This document shows, one piece after another, positions 49-32,903 of a stretch of DNA of 32,903 nt. Position 1 is the stretch's first letter, and the number at the start of each line of letters is the position of its first letter. The notes beneath the pieces are model-generated. The model ran no database searches and had not been told where the DNA came from. It saw only the letters and a program-made list of their open reading frames with translations. Origin of the DNA: Alphaproteobacteria bacterium (GTDB lineage Bacteria; Pseudomonadota; Alphaproteobacteria; Rickettsiales; UBA3002); contig JALHRI010000022.1 of assembly GCA_022841525.1 (NCBI GenBank), positions 1-32,903 of the forward strand, read 5' to 3'. Made by a program: the position numbers and the translations under genes.

Positions 49-144
49 ATGACCACGAGCATCCGCCAGAACGACCTGATCGAATCCGTCGCCGCCGCCC
101 TGCAGTACATCAGCTACTTTGCACTGGGTGAAAACACGTTATAA
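49..144 (+). pseudogene. Severed 5' end of the host class I fumarate hydratase gene
   Basis: This 31-codon reading frame begins MTTSIRQNDLIESVAAALQ and continues QYISY before entering phage DNA and stopping at TAA 142-144. The same QYISY segment reappears at the right end, followed by host sequence typical of the N-terminus of class I (iron-sulfur) fumarases. The GC-rich codons up to base 117 are host; the last eight codons are phage. It is therefore the original fumarase start, separated from the rest of the gene by the prophage. The resulting peptide is unlikely to function. The host promoter and leader stay on this side. Confidence 0.85.
100..118. other. attL core (left prophage junction)
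   Basis: CTGCAGTACATCAGCTACT is identical to 32786-32804; sequence diverges immediately on both sides. GC-rich coding DNA lies to the left and AT-rich phage DNA to the right. The core lies in frame within the fumarase N-terminus (codons for LQYISY). Confidence 0.9.
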
Positions 145-238
145 ATCAACAACTTACCAACGGCATTAATACTTTATATTAATACAATCGTTGGATATAA
201 TCGCAAGTAACGTAACTTGTTGATTTATAACGTGTTTT
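131..238. repeat. 22-bp perfect inverted repeat flanking a nested hairpin, beside attL
   Basis: Bases 131-152 and 217-238 are exact reverse complements over 22 bp (arm begins AAAACACGTTATAAATC). Between them lie a nested hairpin, CCAACG 157-162 with CGTTGG 189-194, and an inner ATTAATA 165-171 with TATTAAT 177-183. The position 13 bp inside the phage from the att core suggests integrase or excisionase binding, or a control site for the integrase promoter. There is no U-tract, so it is not a standard terminator. Confidence 0.7.
196..201 (+). promoter_or_regulatory. Possible -10 element of the integrase promoter
   Basis: A perfect TATAAT lies 182 bp upstream of the integrase start, between the two arms of the 22-bp inverted repeat. 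The hexamer at the expected -35 position (TTTATA, 173-178) is poor, so this is a weak prediction. If real, a protein bound to the inverted repeat would control integrase transcription. Confidence 0.3.
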
Positions 239-5254: not shown

Positions 5255-5686
5255 GTGAATTATGGAATCCTTTATCAACAACTGATTGAACGTGCGCAGA
5301 ACCGTCTACAAGCGCATAACTCAATTTCACTACCCACTGAGTCCCACCACATCATTCCACGCAGCTTAGGCGGTTCTAACGATGCACAGAACCTTGTACG
5401 CCTTACCGTTCGTGAACACTTCATTGCCCATTGCTTACTGTTCAAGATGGGTTTCACAACACAGATATACGGTGTAGAAGCGTTTCTAAAGGATTCCAAG
5501 GATCGAAGGAAGCCTAACCGTTACCTGCATCCTGATCTACGCTACAAGAGGTGGATACGCAAAGCTTTAGCCCATGAATCAGCCAGGATTGCAAGACAAC
5601 GGAACCGTTCAGCTGCATTGGCATTAACTGACGTAGATCATGACAAAGATTCGCCAAAAACAGGCGAAAAAAACACTGTACTTTGA
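5255..5686 (+). CDS. HNH homing-type endonuclease
   Basis: This 143-residue protein carries an HNH nuclease domain: ESHHIIPRSLGG (residues 29-40, with the metal-binding and catalytic His pair) followed by NLVRLTVREHFIAHCLL (46-62), where the Asn and the later histidines complete the beta-beta-alpha-metal site. The N-terminal YQQLIERAQNR fits the usual lead-in of free-standing phage HNH proteins. The C-terminus is basic and poorly conserved. It starts with GTG 5255; an in-frame stop 30 bp upstream rules out a longer protein, and the ribosome site is weak. It has its own promoter and no cotranscribed partner, in keeping with a selfish homing gene inserted between early genes. It could also assist phage DNA processing. 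Confidence 0.88.
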   Translation: MNYGILYQQLIERAQNRLQAHNSISLPTESHHIIPRSLGGSNDAQNLVRLTVREHFIAHCLLFKMGFTTQIYGVEAFLKDSKDRRKPNRYLHPDLRYKRWIRKALAHESARIARQRNRSAALALTDVDHDKDSPKTGEKNTVL

Positions 5687-6134
5687 CGGGTTAATACATG
5701 CAATGCTGACGTAATTGTGACAGTGCACAAAAGAAGGCTTTAAGTTGTTGATATCTATAGCCTTTTAGATACCGTGCAGTACGTGGTGTACTCAATGCTG
5801 TGTTGAATAGGCATTGTCTATTTGAATCTGGAATCCTTTTGAAATGTTTAGGTTGACAGGCTAGGATTTCTTTAGGAATTCAGAAGGGGGTGGGGTGAAT
5901 TGTAAACAAGAAAGCAAAATGGGTGGCTGTGATGCAGTGCAATGCTCATCACCTCAGACCTCTTCAAAAACCACCTACCCTATTGTTTAACCAGTTCGCT
6001 CATCACATCAGACCTCTTCAAAAACCACCTACCCTATTGTTTAACCAGTTCGCTCATTGCTGAAAATATCAGACCTCTATCAAAAGGGACTGTCCTTGTA
6101 ATTAACTAAATACAGTAGTAACAAAGGGAGAACA
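5687..6134. other. Intergenic region of 448 bp
   Basis: No gene is seen. The first 250 bp are unremarkable. The right half carries a 54-bp tandem repeat (5944-6051) and a partial third copy. TAAATAC (6107-6113) lies about 25 bp before the next GTG start. Confidence 0.5.
5944..6088. repeat. 54-bp tandem direct repeat with partial third copy
   Basis: Copy 1 (5944-5997) and copy 2 (5998-6051) differ at one base near their start. Each begins GCTCATCAC and includes CAGACCTCTTCAAAAACC. A degenerate third copy follows, keeping GCTCAT (6052-6057) and TCAGACCTCTATCAAAA. Candidate roles are origin iterons or binding sites for a phage protein. Confidence 0.85.
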
Positions 6135-6353
6135 GTGATAGACCTTACATCCATCATCACATCGGAAATGAACAGCTACACATCCAAGCTGACATTACTT
6201 GAATCACAGTATCAGATGCTTCATTCAAATCAAGCACTGGTCAACAACAACCTCACGCAGATAGAACGACTACGCGCAGAACTACCAGACGAAATACTGT
6301 GCTTCTACGATCAGCTGCGTGTGATCAACAAGCTTAAGGGAGACCAGGTATGA
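6135..6353 (+). CDS. Small coiled-coil phage protein, function unknown
   Basis: This 72-residue protein begins MIDLTSIITSEMNSYTSKL and is almost wholly helical with hydrophobic heptads (LTLLESQYQMLHSNQ, LTQIERLRAEL), suggesting a coiled-coil dimer. The GTG at 6135 has GGGAG close upstream. Its stop overlaps the ATG of the next gene as ATGA, so the pair form an operon. No family is recognised. Confidence 0.75.
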   Translation: MIDLTSIITSEMNSYTSKLTLLESQYQMLHSNQALVNNNLTQIERLRAELPDEILCFYDQLRVINKLKGDQV

Positions 6354-6846: not shown

Positions 6847-7000
6847 AATGGCCAGTTCCGTCATTTGCGGCATTGTTTTGCAGACCACGGCGTAATTTCT
6901 TCAATGAAATCAACGACTTACAAAGCCTCAAAAACGTTTTTCACGCTCAGCTACCCACATAGCTGGACAATGAATTAACCGACTCAAAACAGCTCCGTTT
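6847..7000. other. Non-coding gap after cassette D
   Basis: No gene is seen on either strand. TTGCAGACCAC (6879-6889) repeats the sequence just inside cassette D (6707-6717). The stretch separates convergent transcription from the left and from the leftward paralogue operon. Confidence 0.4.
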
Positions 7001-23035: not shown

Positions 23036-24494
23036 CTACGTAGGTGCTGCCAATGCGACAGCAGCAGCGAATATGGAGATGGCCAAGTACGCAACTGAGG
23101 CCAACAGAATCAACCAAAACAACCCATATGGCTCACTTTCGTACAGCCAGGACGGTAATGGTAGATGGACTCAGACAGAAACACTTGATCCACGGATTCA
23201 GGAGGCACTGAATAGTCAGATCAAAGTCCAGACGGATCGAAGTCAGTACGCATCTGACCTACTGGGCGAAGTAAAAAGCAGCTACGCAACACCGTTCAAT
23301 CCAAACAGGCTTGAAAGCTATCTAAGTGGCGTAAACAACGTAAACCAAGACAGCTTAGGGCGTGCAGGCAACTTCAATTCGAATGCTTCCATCAACACAG
23401 GCACACCTACTGCGAATGAGCTGAATACACAGTTTGGACAATTCAATGGTGGACCACAGCAGAACTTAAACGCACCCAGCTATGACCCATCTAGGGCGCA
23501 GGAGTATGCAAACAAAGCCTTTGAAAGTCAGATGGCTTTGCTTTCACCTGAAATGGAGCGTTATGACACTTCGCTTAGAAACAGCCTAGCACTCCAAGGT
23601 CTAACACCCGGCACAGAAGCATCTACAAATGCACTTACTTCCTACGAGCTAGGTCGTGCAGGACAGATGAACAGTCTTGCAGCAAGTTCTTATCTAACAG
23701 GTAACGAAGCTGCAAACCGTGACTATTCAAGCCAGTTGAACGCATACAACAGCCAGAACAACGCTGCAAATACACAGTTTGGGAACAACCTACAGCAGTT
23801 TGGTGCCAACACAGAAGCTCAGCGTATGGGCAACGACGCGAACACGCAGAACTTCACAAACCAGCTGCAAAGCTACTTGCAAGGCAATCAAGCGCAGTTA
23901 CAGCAGTTTGGTATGGATCAAGCAAGCTACGACAACCAACTACGTGGACTCAGTGCAAATGCTGGACTACAGCAGGCAGAAAACGACTCCCAGTCGCAAG
24001 CCTACAGCCAAGCACTTTCAGAGTACGGCACAAACTGGCAGCAAGACCAAACACTTCGCAACTTGCCACTGAACGAGTTGAATGCGTTGATGAGTGGACA
24101 GCAAGTGCAGAACCCCGAGTTCAAGAATTATTACTTGCAGAATCAAACTGCTGGTGCTGATTATCTTGGCGCTGCTAGTTCGCAAGGTGACTGGGATAGA
24201 GGCATTTACAACGCACAAGCCGCAGAGGCTTCAAGTGGAAACGCTGCACTAGGAAACCTAGCAAGTGCGGCAATGATGATGTTTGCCATGTCTGACGAAA
24301 GACTTAAGAAGAACATTGAAAAGGTTGGTGAAACACCGGGCGGAACTAACGTCTATCAGTGGGACTGGAACACGAAAGGTAAGAAGATTGCTGGCAATCA
24401 ACCTACTGTCGGTGTTATCGCTCAAGAGAACCCACACGCAGCTAAGAAGACCTCTACAGGTTACTTAGGCGTTGACTACAGCAAGATCAAATAA
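22998..24494 (+). CDS. Virion ejection-type protein with S74 chaperone domain
   Basis: This 498-residue protein begins MGKSSPAAPPPPDYVGAANA, an N-terminus common among podovirus internal virion proteins. Residues 90-400 are long Gln/Asn/Ala-rich helices suited to a DNA-ejection conduit. At the C-terminus SDERLKKNIEKVGE (from Ser432) and VGVIAQENPHA form an intramolecular chaperone domain of the S74 peptidase type, with Ser432 and the nearby Lys as probable self-cleavage dyad. S74 domains usually end trimeric fibres, so finding one here is notable. It starts with GGGAG six bases before the ATG. Confidence 0.75.
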   Translation: MGKSSPAAPPPPDYVGAANATAAANMEMAKYATEANRINQNNPYGSLSYSQDGNGRWTQTETLDPRIQEALNSQIKVQTDRSQYASDLLGEVKSSYATPFNPNRLESYLSGVNNVNQDSLGRAGNFNSNASINTGTPTANELNTQFGQFNGGPQQNLNAPSYDPSRAQEYANKAFESQMALLSPEMERYDTSLRNSLALQGLTPGTEASTNALTSYELGRAGQMNSLAASSYLTGNEAANRDYSSQLNAYNSQNNAANTQFGNNLQQFGANTEAQRMGNDANTQNFTNQLQSYLQGNQAQLQQFGMDQASYDNQLRGLSANAGLQQAENDSQSQAYSQALSEYGTNWQQDQTLRNLPLNELNALMSGQQVQNPEFKNYYLQNQTAGADYLGAASSQGDWDRGIYNAQAAEASSGNAALGNLASAAMMMFAMSDERLKKNIEKVGETPGGTNVYQWDWNTKGKKIAGNQPTVGVIAQENPHAAKKTSTGYLGVDYSKIK

Positions 24495-31634: not shown

Positions 31635-32003
31635 TTATTTGTTGTCGTTTGTATTTGCGACCGGCTCCAAGTATCTCCAGCCTGCCCATTTTGGTTTCTC
31701 GCTGCGCGTGCGATTACTAATAGTGGCTGGAGACAACCCATAATGCTTTGCACATTCACCACGCGACTCAAATATGCCATCGGGGGTTTGGACACGGATC
31801 TTTTGATCTTCGTTTGCTTGGTTGTAATAGCCTTCAAATTTCCTCTTAGCCCAAACTGCACTCATTGAGGCTGACTGTTTTTCCTTGGCTTCCTCGCTTA
31901 CCCTATACCCCAATCGACGACCTACTTGGCTCTGACGGCTTTGCTTTTTCTCAGTCACTTTCGGTTTCTCAACTGAGTACACACCAACAACAGTTATTTT
32001 CAT
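31635..32003 (-). CDS. NUMOD-type DNA-binding protein lacking a nuclease domain
   Basis: This 122-residue basic protein combines modules otherwise appended to homing endonucleases. Residues 28-55 (GRRLGYRVSEEAKEKQSASM then WAKRK) fit the NUMOD3-like pattern; residues 70-112 (VQTPDGIFESRGECAKHYGL, SPATISNRTR, KWAGWRYL) fit a NUMOD1-like helix-turn-helix. No GIY-YIG or HNH catalytic motif is present. It may be a remnant of a homing endonuclease or a stand-alone regulator. The ATG has AAGGAGAG three bases upstream, and CATAAATA (minus strand, 32024-32031) lies about 20 bp before the start. Confidence 0.7.
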   Translation of the reverse strand: MKITVVGVYSVEKPKVTEKKQSRQSQVGRRLGYRVSEEAKEKQSASMSAVWAKRKFEGYYNQANEDQKIRVQTPDGIFESRGECAKHYGLSPATISNRTRSEKPKWAGWRYLEPVANTNDNK

Positions 32004-32147: not shown

Positions 32148-32546
32148 ATGACTACTTCACCCAAACCCAAGGAGCAATCTGTGGAAGCTACCGATCTGAA
32201 GAAACTTACCTATGTCCAACTCAAGAAGCTTGCTGAGGATGCAACTGCACAGCTTGAAAGCAAGCGGGACGAGGAACTGAAGGTGCTTGCAGACGGGTAT
32301 GCAAAAAAGCTGGAACAAGCGGGTTTCACTATCAACGAAGGGGTAGCTGCACTTGGCCCTTACAAACCAGCTAAAACAGCGCGAAAAGCGCGTGTAGCGC
32401 GTGCGGACAAGGGTGTAGCAGCAGAGCCAAAGTACAAGGGACCGAACGGCGAGCTTTGGTCAGGCCGTGGACAAGCGCCAAAATGGATGAAGCCCTTGAT
32501 CGCAGCAGGCAAGAAAAAAGCGGACTTCCTCATCACAGAAGCCTAA
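32148..32546 (+). CDS. H-NS-like xenogeneic silencer
   Basis: This 132-residue protein ends with the H-NS DNA-binding motif: YKGPNGELWSGRGQAPKWMK (residues 96-115), where SGRGQAP enters the minor groove of AT-rich DNA. The N-terminal 65 residues form helices for oligomerisation (LKKLTYVQLKKLAEDATAQL), and a Lys/Ala-rich linker connects both (KTARKARVARADKG). The type is that of Burkholderiales H-NS family proteins. Here it sits near attR in an AT-rich prophage, so it may silence phage genes in the lysogen, affect host genes, or replace host H-NS. It has a shared operator-like site upstream and an efficient terminator about 90 bp downstream. Confidence 0.9.
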   Translation: MTTSPKPKEQSVEATDLKKLTYVQLKKLAEDATAQLESKRDEELKVLADGYAKKLEQAGFTINEGVAALGPYKPAKTARKARVARADKGVAAEPKYKGPNGELWSGRGQAPKWMKPLIAAGKKKADFLITEA

Positions 32547-32584
32547 ATAGCAGGAAAGAACACGCTAGGAGCTGTGACAGCGAA

Positions 32585-32606
32585 ACAGAGCTAACCCTAT
32601 GTGCAG
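32585..32606 (+). repeat. 22-nt element shared with the capsid leader
   Basis: It matches 18424-18445 at 18 of 22 positions (shared core AGCTxACCCTxTGTG). Both copies lie in non-coding DNA downstream of an (A/C)TAAATA string and an ACGC-AGGAG string. Confidence 0.5.
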
Positions 32607-32633
32607 CAAGTAAAATTCGCTGTCACTACTCCC

Positions 32634-32670: not shown

Positions 32671-32737
32671 GTTCGTCGTCGCTGTCACACCACAGTATTT
32701 GCGACAGTAAAAGTTGTTGAAAATCAAGGGCTTACAG

Positions 32738-32903
32738 ATGGTTTCGATCAAATACGCAGATTTAGTTGAGTCAATTGCAGCGTCTCTGCAGTACATCAGC
32801 TACTACCACCCGGCCGACTACATCGCCCACCTCGCCCGCGCCTACGAGCGTGAGCAAAGCGCCGCCGCCAAGGACGCCATTGCGCAGATCCTGACCAACA
32901 GCA
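32738..32903 (+). CDS. Fumarate hydratase class I, rebuilt with phage-encoded N-terminus (partial)
   Basis: Fumarase converts fumarate and water to malate in the TCA cycle. The visible N-terminal 55 residues include QYISYYHPADYIAHLARAYE and AAKDAIAQILTNS, the standard start of the class I, oxygen-sensitive iron-sulfur fumarases. The frame runs off the window. The first 16 codons (MVSIKYADLVESIAAS) are phage DNA, AT-rich and different in sequence from the severed host start (MTTSIRQNDLIESVAAA) but equivalent in protein. ATG 32738 has AAGGG seven bases upstream, also from the phage. The prophage thereby conserves a working enzyme after inserting in its gene, but places it under new leader and promoter sequence. 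Confidence 0.9.
   Translation, partial: MVSIKYADLVESIAASLQYISYYHPADYIAHLARAYEREQSAAAKDAIAQILTNS
32786..32804. other. attR core (right prophage junction)
   Basis: The second copy of CTGCAGTACATCAGCTACT lies in frame at codons 17-22 of the rebuilt fumarase. AT-rich phage DNA lies on its left, GC-rich host coding DNA on its right. Confidence 0.9.

Follow-up and report, generated by a model that had tools for sequence, protein, structure and literature searches.

The window, that is, the whole stretch of 32,903 nucleotides that was analysed, is an entire contig and holds a prophage bounded by two copies of a 19-bp core, CTGCAGTACATCAGCTACT. The features at its two ends are the following:

49–144, + strand: 5′ end of the host class I fumarase gene, severed by integration (from the translation)
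100–118, + strand: att core at attL, 19 bp, exact duplicate of the copy at 32786–32804
383–1429, + strand: tyrosine integrase ORF, int (PF00589, E = 1e-29; phrog_1, integrase)
32738–32903, + strand: phage-supplied fumarase start, MVSIKYADLVESIAASLQYISYYHP..., with its ATG at 32738–32740 (from the translation)
32786–32804, + strand: att core at attR, 19 bp, exact duplicate of the copy at 100–118

The att core is positioned at the 5′ end of the gene of a class I fumarase, a family that was assigned on the gene of the relative L047 (500 residues, PF05681 and PF05683). At the left end, the host ATG at 49 opens a frame that translates MTTSIRQNDLIESVAAALQYISYFALGENTL, enters phage DNA and terminates at a stop codon (142–144) inside the left arm of the inverted repeat described below. 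At the right end, the start provided by the phage is in frame with the remainder of the host gene, which leaves the contig end. As in a lambda-type attP, the tyrosine integrase gene adjoins the duplicated 19-bp core; its reading direction is away from the core. No tRNA genes were detected in the window. In Xylella, one report (PMC2605562) places elements between the genes of fumarate hydratase and of a glucose inhibited division protein, near tRNA-Cys.

The GC content is 68–69% in the flanks, 47% in the whole window and 51–57% in five 12-kb stretches of other contigs. Close relatives of the integrase belong to records of Rhizobacter, Burkholderiales and Sapientia, with none in the 342 other genomes of the assembly's order, and the contig may not belong to this bin. 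Elsewhere in the window, an H-NS-type protein gene is located near attR (32148–32546; PF00816, E = 2e-11; phrog_10171), two ORFs resemble homing endonucleases (5255–5686, phrog_655, E = 9e-27; 31635–32003, phrog_314, E = 2e-8), and a 54-bp tandem duplication with copies 98% alike (5944–6051) lies upstream of the ORF at 6135.

The comparisons were based on five intact close relatives of the integrase, that is, L004, L005 (71% identity), L006 (61%), L007 (56%) and L175 (E = 1e-126), L006 and L007 being from one genome. Four relatives came from a search of genome contigs. L175 and a set of weaker relatives were retrieved from samples of three larger groups: the family of the Sapientia genome G092 (392 genomes), the order of G092 (399) and the family of G090 (399). 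Ten of the weaker or broken relatives were kept outside the main counts (L040–L045, with 31–37% identity; L172, L173 and L177, with E values of 8.8e-48 to 5.3e-50; and L176). Viral contigs gave one short match to the integrase (L008, left out) and none to the alignment A1. Phages and plasmids gave only matches below 60% identity (for plasmids, among the matches listed, 5000 records), and 90 related genomes together with 343 of the window's order contained no close integrase relative besides the window itself.

A truncated fumarase 5′ end precedes the integrase in four of the five close relatives (L004, L005, L006 and L175) as it does in the window, and L007 is located elsewhere. A phage-supplied fumarase start is also found on the right side in L031, which belongs to the L006 element, and in L047, probably of the L005 element. 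The members of this integrase group examined here are thus mostly inserted at the beginning of a gene of central metabolism, to which they give a new start. The weaker relative L176 (1501–2520), which carries one in-frame stop, also adjoins a fumarase start.

The interval between the att core (100–118) and int (383–1429) is occupied by a long perfect inverted repeat, exactly where the original prediction had placed it. Its arms (131–152 and 217–238) are complementary at 22 of 22 positions, and when prolonged to 131–157 and 212–238 they still agree at 26 of 27 bp, far beyond chance. The repeat is indeed close to the core, although the distance is 12 bp and not the 13 bp that had been claimed. 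Stretch 125–245 folds with z = −6.6 as DNA and z = −6.2 as RNA (−38 kcal/mol), and none of 200 dinucleotide shuffles folded as well in either case. The nested inner hairpins of that prediction (CCAACG...CGTTGG and ATTAATA...TATTAAT) are present, and its TATAAT in the central part was found at 196–201. A search with 100–382 over the 2.34-Mb assembly returned three matches (E ≤ 0.001), namely its own place and the arms matching each other, and Rfam gave no match in the window at the gathering threshold.

The arms and the interior of the repeat, together with a third site in the opposite att arm and a promoter match, are as follows:

131–157, + strand: left arm, IHF-type site 1 (A-tract 131–134, AT-rich spacer, AATCAACAACTTA at 144–156)
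158–211, + strand: spacer with the inner hairpins (from the fold)
173–201, + strand: candidate int promoter, TTTATA-17-TATAAT, sigma-70-like (10 of 12 matches)
212–238, − strand: right arm, IHF-type site 2, inverted (AATCAACAAGTTA at 225–213, A-tract 238–235)
32709–32734, + strand: IHF-type site 3, in the attR arm (AAAA 32709–32712, AATCAAGGGCTTA at 32722–32734)

The 13-bp consensus of integration host factor (IHF), a DNA-bending protein widespread in bacteria, is WATCAANNNNTTR; this consensus and the AT-rich part on its 5′ side were taken from PMC7581858. The consensus is matched with zero mismatches at 144–156 (+), 213–225 (−) and 32722–32734 (+), and the 16 positions ahead of it contain 11, 11 and 12 A/T in sites 1, 2 and 3, respectively. 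Each 27-bp arm extends from an A-tract, as in lambda H′, to one base beyond the consensus and consists of one full IHF-type site and little else. IHF-type sites are therefore present in both att arms of the window, with their centres at +41, +110 and −67 from the core centre.

On both strands of the 32.9-kb window there are five perfect matches to WATCAANNNNTTR, against one for the reversed-pattern control. The two remaining matches are far from the att arms (5741–5753, − strand; 6908–6920, + strand). That three of the five should fall within the att arms (approximately 474 bp) has a binomial probability of 2.9e-5, a value that depends on the bounds of this span as set by the analyst; none of 2000 shuffles of the two att arms reached three perfect sites. 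In an unguided count, AATCAAC was one of the two 7-mers shared most widely (6 of 9 arms), and 6 of 100 shuffle sets also reached at least 6. A single match means little, because even under the stricter pattern AATCAANNNNTTA G092 contains 136 matches (control 47). As for the protein, the IHF alpha and beta genes of G092 score above the curated cut-offs (154.3 and 125.2 bits), and IHF-like alpha and beta genes of the window's own assembly remain just below them (116.8 against 120.25 and 109.6 against 119.95). If the contig is foreign to the bin, the latter genes are not those of its host.

These matches make it very probable that the inverted repeat represents two near-identical IHF sites facing each other in the int-side att arm, which would help the phage to insert into the host chromosome and to leave it again. 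The repeat does belong to the att/int control region as had been proposed, but its arms probably correspond to a pair of inverted IHF-type sites instead of forming one novel element. It is most likely an ordinary functional part of an attachment site, judged from its sequence, in an uncommon inverted and near-identical arrangement. A conspicuous repeat would in this way be explained by a known protein, with the caution that a long inverted repeat beside an att core may consist of two IHF sites, and not be a terminator or a new operator. The similarity of the arms exceeds what IHF should need, since they are also alike where this protein is not choosy (CACGTTAT and CAA). The IHF reading alone gives no explanation for this extra identity; either both arms approach a single optimum, the site at 5741 being partly similar to them, or one arm arose as a copy of the other.

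Within 5720–5770, a perfect IHF consensus site stands beside GTGACAGTGCACAAAAG, which resembles candidate arm-type words of the relatives. Site 3 shares positions with the probable ribosome-binding site of the fumarase start that the phage provides (32722–32740), a layout also seen in L031 (AATCAAGAGGTTACAATG). The arms of the repeat had also been considered as arm-type sites of the integrase, an option that was dropped once they fitted the IHF consensus.

Conservation of the arms among phages with the same integrase, on which the original prediction depended, gave a divided result: none of the five close relatives has a comparable long inverted repeat at the corresponding place, but the inverted IHF pair with its gap of 56 bp is found in two of them. 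In detail, the pair has zero mismatches in L007 and two in L006, in both without the long arms or the hairpin of the repeat, and is missing from L004, L005 and L175 (7 mismatches each at this gap). L005 had been considered as a third keeper of the spacing and was rejected on these 7 mismatches. Over the window, L005, L006 and L007 (0, 7, 2 and 0 mismatches), 56 bp was the best of 151 gaps, and none of 300 shuffle sets did as well at any gap. The 56-bp spacers agree, ungapped, at 21 of 56 positions between L006 and L007, at 19 between the window and L006 and at 12 between the window and L007.

Single sites are also met among the relatives. L005 has only the right site, with one mismatch, and L175 one perfect site at +39 in the opposite orientation. 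At the right end of the L006 element (L031, same contig), a perfect site (1483–1495) lies at −66 from the core, just before the phage-supplied fumarase start, and L047, probably the right end of the L005 element, shows only a match with two mismatches there. The ten more distant or broken relatives lack the pair at gap 56 (0 of 10; 6–7 mismatches each), and one of them, L043, has one perfect IHF-type site. Repeats of other kinds occur in three close relatives, that is, a 23-bp palindrome in the fumarase stub of L005, an 18-bp pair in the int leader of L007 and a 13-bp pair in L175 with its copies 121 bp apart.

A scan of viral contigs for inverted pairs showed no peak at gap 56 (1 of 130 among the matches listed). 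A 305-kb viral contig, IMGVR_UViG_3300033498_000048 (L094, L100, L105, L117 and L121), contains many inverted pairs of AATCAANNNNTTA, nearly all at a gap of 42 bp among the matches listed, and these may represent a repeated element.

The same scan was applied to the attP of lambda (L191, 200–640) as a yardstick. Relative to the centre of the core, it recovered three perfect sites (−119, −41 and +39), which we take to be H1, H2 and H′, and two matches with one mismatch (+77 and +84). The names are those used in PMC4880445. The window is similar to lambda in having three perfect consensus sites around the core, in how far the core-proximal site lies from the core (41 bp, against 39 and 41 bp in lambda) and in the polarity of this site, whose A-tract or AT-rich side faces the core. 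It differs in that the two sites of the same arm are inverted, 69 bp apart and near-identical, whereas those of lambda face the same way and are 78 bp apart. It differs also in that int points away from the core and not towards it, and in that the phage inserts into the 5′ end of a protein-coding gene.

Other attachment sites share parts of this plan. HP1 and P2 likewise have IHF sites near the core (annotated at 24324–24357 in P2; the HP1 core was set at the midpoint of its annotated attP), in both as matches with one mismatch. In contrast to the window, neither has a perfect consensus site or, at one mismatch, an inverted IHF pair in one arm. In KplE1 and HK620 int is likewise oriented away from the core, which would place a promoter of its own within attL (PMC2951348). 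HK620, unlike the window, shows only IHF matches with one mismatch and no inverted repeat of at least 12 bp in 1150–1700 of its record. Inverted repeats of at least 12 bp were absent from the stretches of HP1 and HK620 that were searched, and lambda and P2 have one imperfect repeat each that is not an IHF match, the one of P2 located in its annotated Cox region. Sites known to use IHF need not match perfectly, as HP1, P2 and HK620 have only matches with one mismatch, and by the same token a perfect match is no proof.

In lambda, bends that IHF makes at H2 and H′ steer the arms towards the integrase tetramer (PMC4880445; PMC4111918 is a further basis for this step). By analogy, IHF would introduce a sharp bend at each of the two sites and so turn the int-side arm back on itself. 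This would bring integrase attached to arm-type sites farther out within reach of the core, and the second, inverted bend would presumably shape the arm. That IHF binds and bends this DNA, and is needed, we infer from the sites themselves. An inverted pair at a fixed spacing would be a testable variation on the attachment-site plan of lambda.

An additional effect of binding on an int promoter located between the two sites is less certain. A rather doubtful alternative is that the IHF pair chiefly regulates int, with the promoter at 173–201 helped or closed by the flanking bends and by the integrase, in the manner of KplE1 or HK620. The match at 10 of 12 positions is placed between the IHF-type sites, with site 2 just past the expected transcription start; a promoter belonging to int must be situated between the core and int, since transcription of the gene runs away from the core; and KplE1 offers a precedent, its int promoter overlapping attL and being repressed by the integrase and its directionality factor (PMC2951348). 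Against this, positions 1–1500 have two such matches, of which 173–201 is the better, where shuffles give 0.9 (sd 1.1), and the same scan detected no match in either L006 or L007, nor at the corresponding place in L005. Elsewhere, it gave only matches at 9 of 12 positions, in L005 and in L004, the latter without the pair and with two matches further on. The proposed link between the repeat and integrase expression therefore keeps the promoter match between the sites, but this is near the chance rate and is unseen at that place in the relatives; such a link is possible, and conservation does not support it. Regulation of int is compatible with the IHF reading and the two are not exclusive.

A combined scheme, in which the facing IHF sites and the int promoter enclosed by them would act together as an IHF-controlled switch, appears unlikely on the whole. 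IHF at both sites would hold the arm in a recombination-ready fold with int off, and without IHF int would be made. If this were the case, the arms would be kept alike so as to make both bends equally strong.

It is quite improbable that the repeat acts as RNA, that is, as a large hairpin in transcripts from the promoter of the severed fumarase gene which stops or blocks unwanted int expression. The RNA fold is very stable, as given above, the fumarase stub lies directly upstream in the same direction, and L005 has its own terminator-like hairpin near this place (2672–2691; fold z = −3.2). However, the repeat has no U-tract, its arms coincide with IHF-type sites, and in four of the five close relatives the corresponding stretch shows no folding beyond expectation (z = −1.1 in L006, +0.8 in L007, −0.5 in L004 and +0.2 in L175), so that the fold of the spacer region is not kept there.

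Very improbable indeed is an operator pair for another protein, such as an excisionase, a repressor or the phage H-NS-like protein. The spacer is AT-rich and the H-NS-type gene lies close to attR, but the motif has no mismatch to the IHF consensus and recurs in the opposite att arm at almost the same position in the window (−67) and in the L006 element (−66). Moreover, the ORFs scanned, a subset of those of the window, included no recognisable excisionase or repressor.

An intrinsic terminator, which the original prediction had already thought a poor fit, was rejected on the missing U-tract, none being found after the repeat on the + strand, and on the absence of the fold from four of the five relatives; none of the three terminators (GC-rich stem and U-tract) called in 1–1500 falls within 131–245.

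A literature search on the IHF consensus, arrangements of IHF sites, fumarase integration and sequestered int starts, covering mostly non-subscription sources and returning partly loose matches, yielded no description of this site.

A smaller structure is found immediately before the integrase gene:

342–379, + strand: int leader hairpin with loop TAAATA, its outer stem over part of the ribosome-binding site AAGGAG at 370–375 (RNA fold z = −3.0)

A hairpin over the ribosome-binding site of int is present in five of six loci (the window and L004–L007, with differing stem sequences) and not in L175. The z values of the leader folds are −3.0 in the window, −4.2, −2.9, −4.7 and −1.5 in L004–L007 and +0.25 in L175; for L007, 18 of 200 shuffles fold as well. 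With the site placed by script, the mean unpaired probability of the ribosome-binding site is 0.31, 0.00, 0.04, 0.45 and 0.17 in the window and L004–L007, respectively. The native pairing of 5′ and 3′ arms was the best of 120 permutations over the five loci (−97.7, the next being −93.0), and 2 of 20 foreign pairings equal the weakest native one in strength. RNAalifold on a MAFFT alignment of the int leaders gave no pairs. The leader hairpin could silence int on transcripts entering from the fumarase promoter. A further idea, that transcription of int from inside the leader loop frees the ribosome-binding site, fails in the window, where the unpaired probability is 0.31 with or without the 5′ arm.

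Candidates for the arm-type sites of the integrase were also noted. The best shared candidate, the word GTACAAAA, is found in four of nine arms (L005 right, L006 left and right, L175 left) and in none of the window, and 31 of 100 shuffle sets reach at least four. In the attR arm of the window, a 17-nt inverted repeat (88%) surrounds GTGACAGCGAA at 32568–32632. Another candidate is ACAGCGAA, which also occurs in the attL arm and in that of L004.
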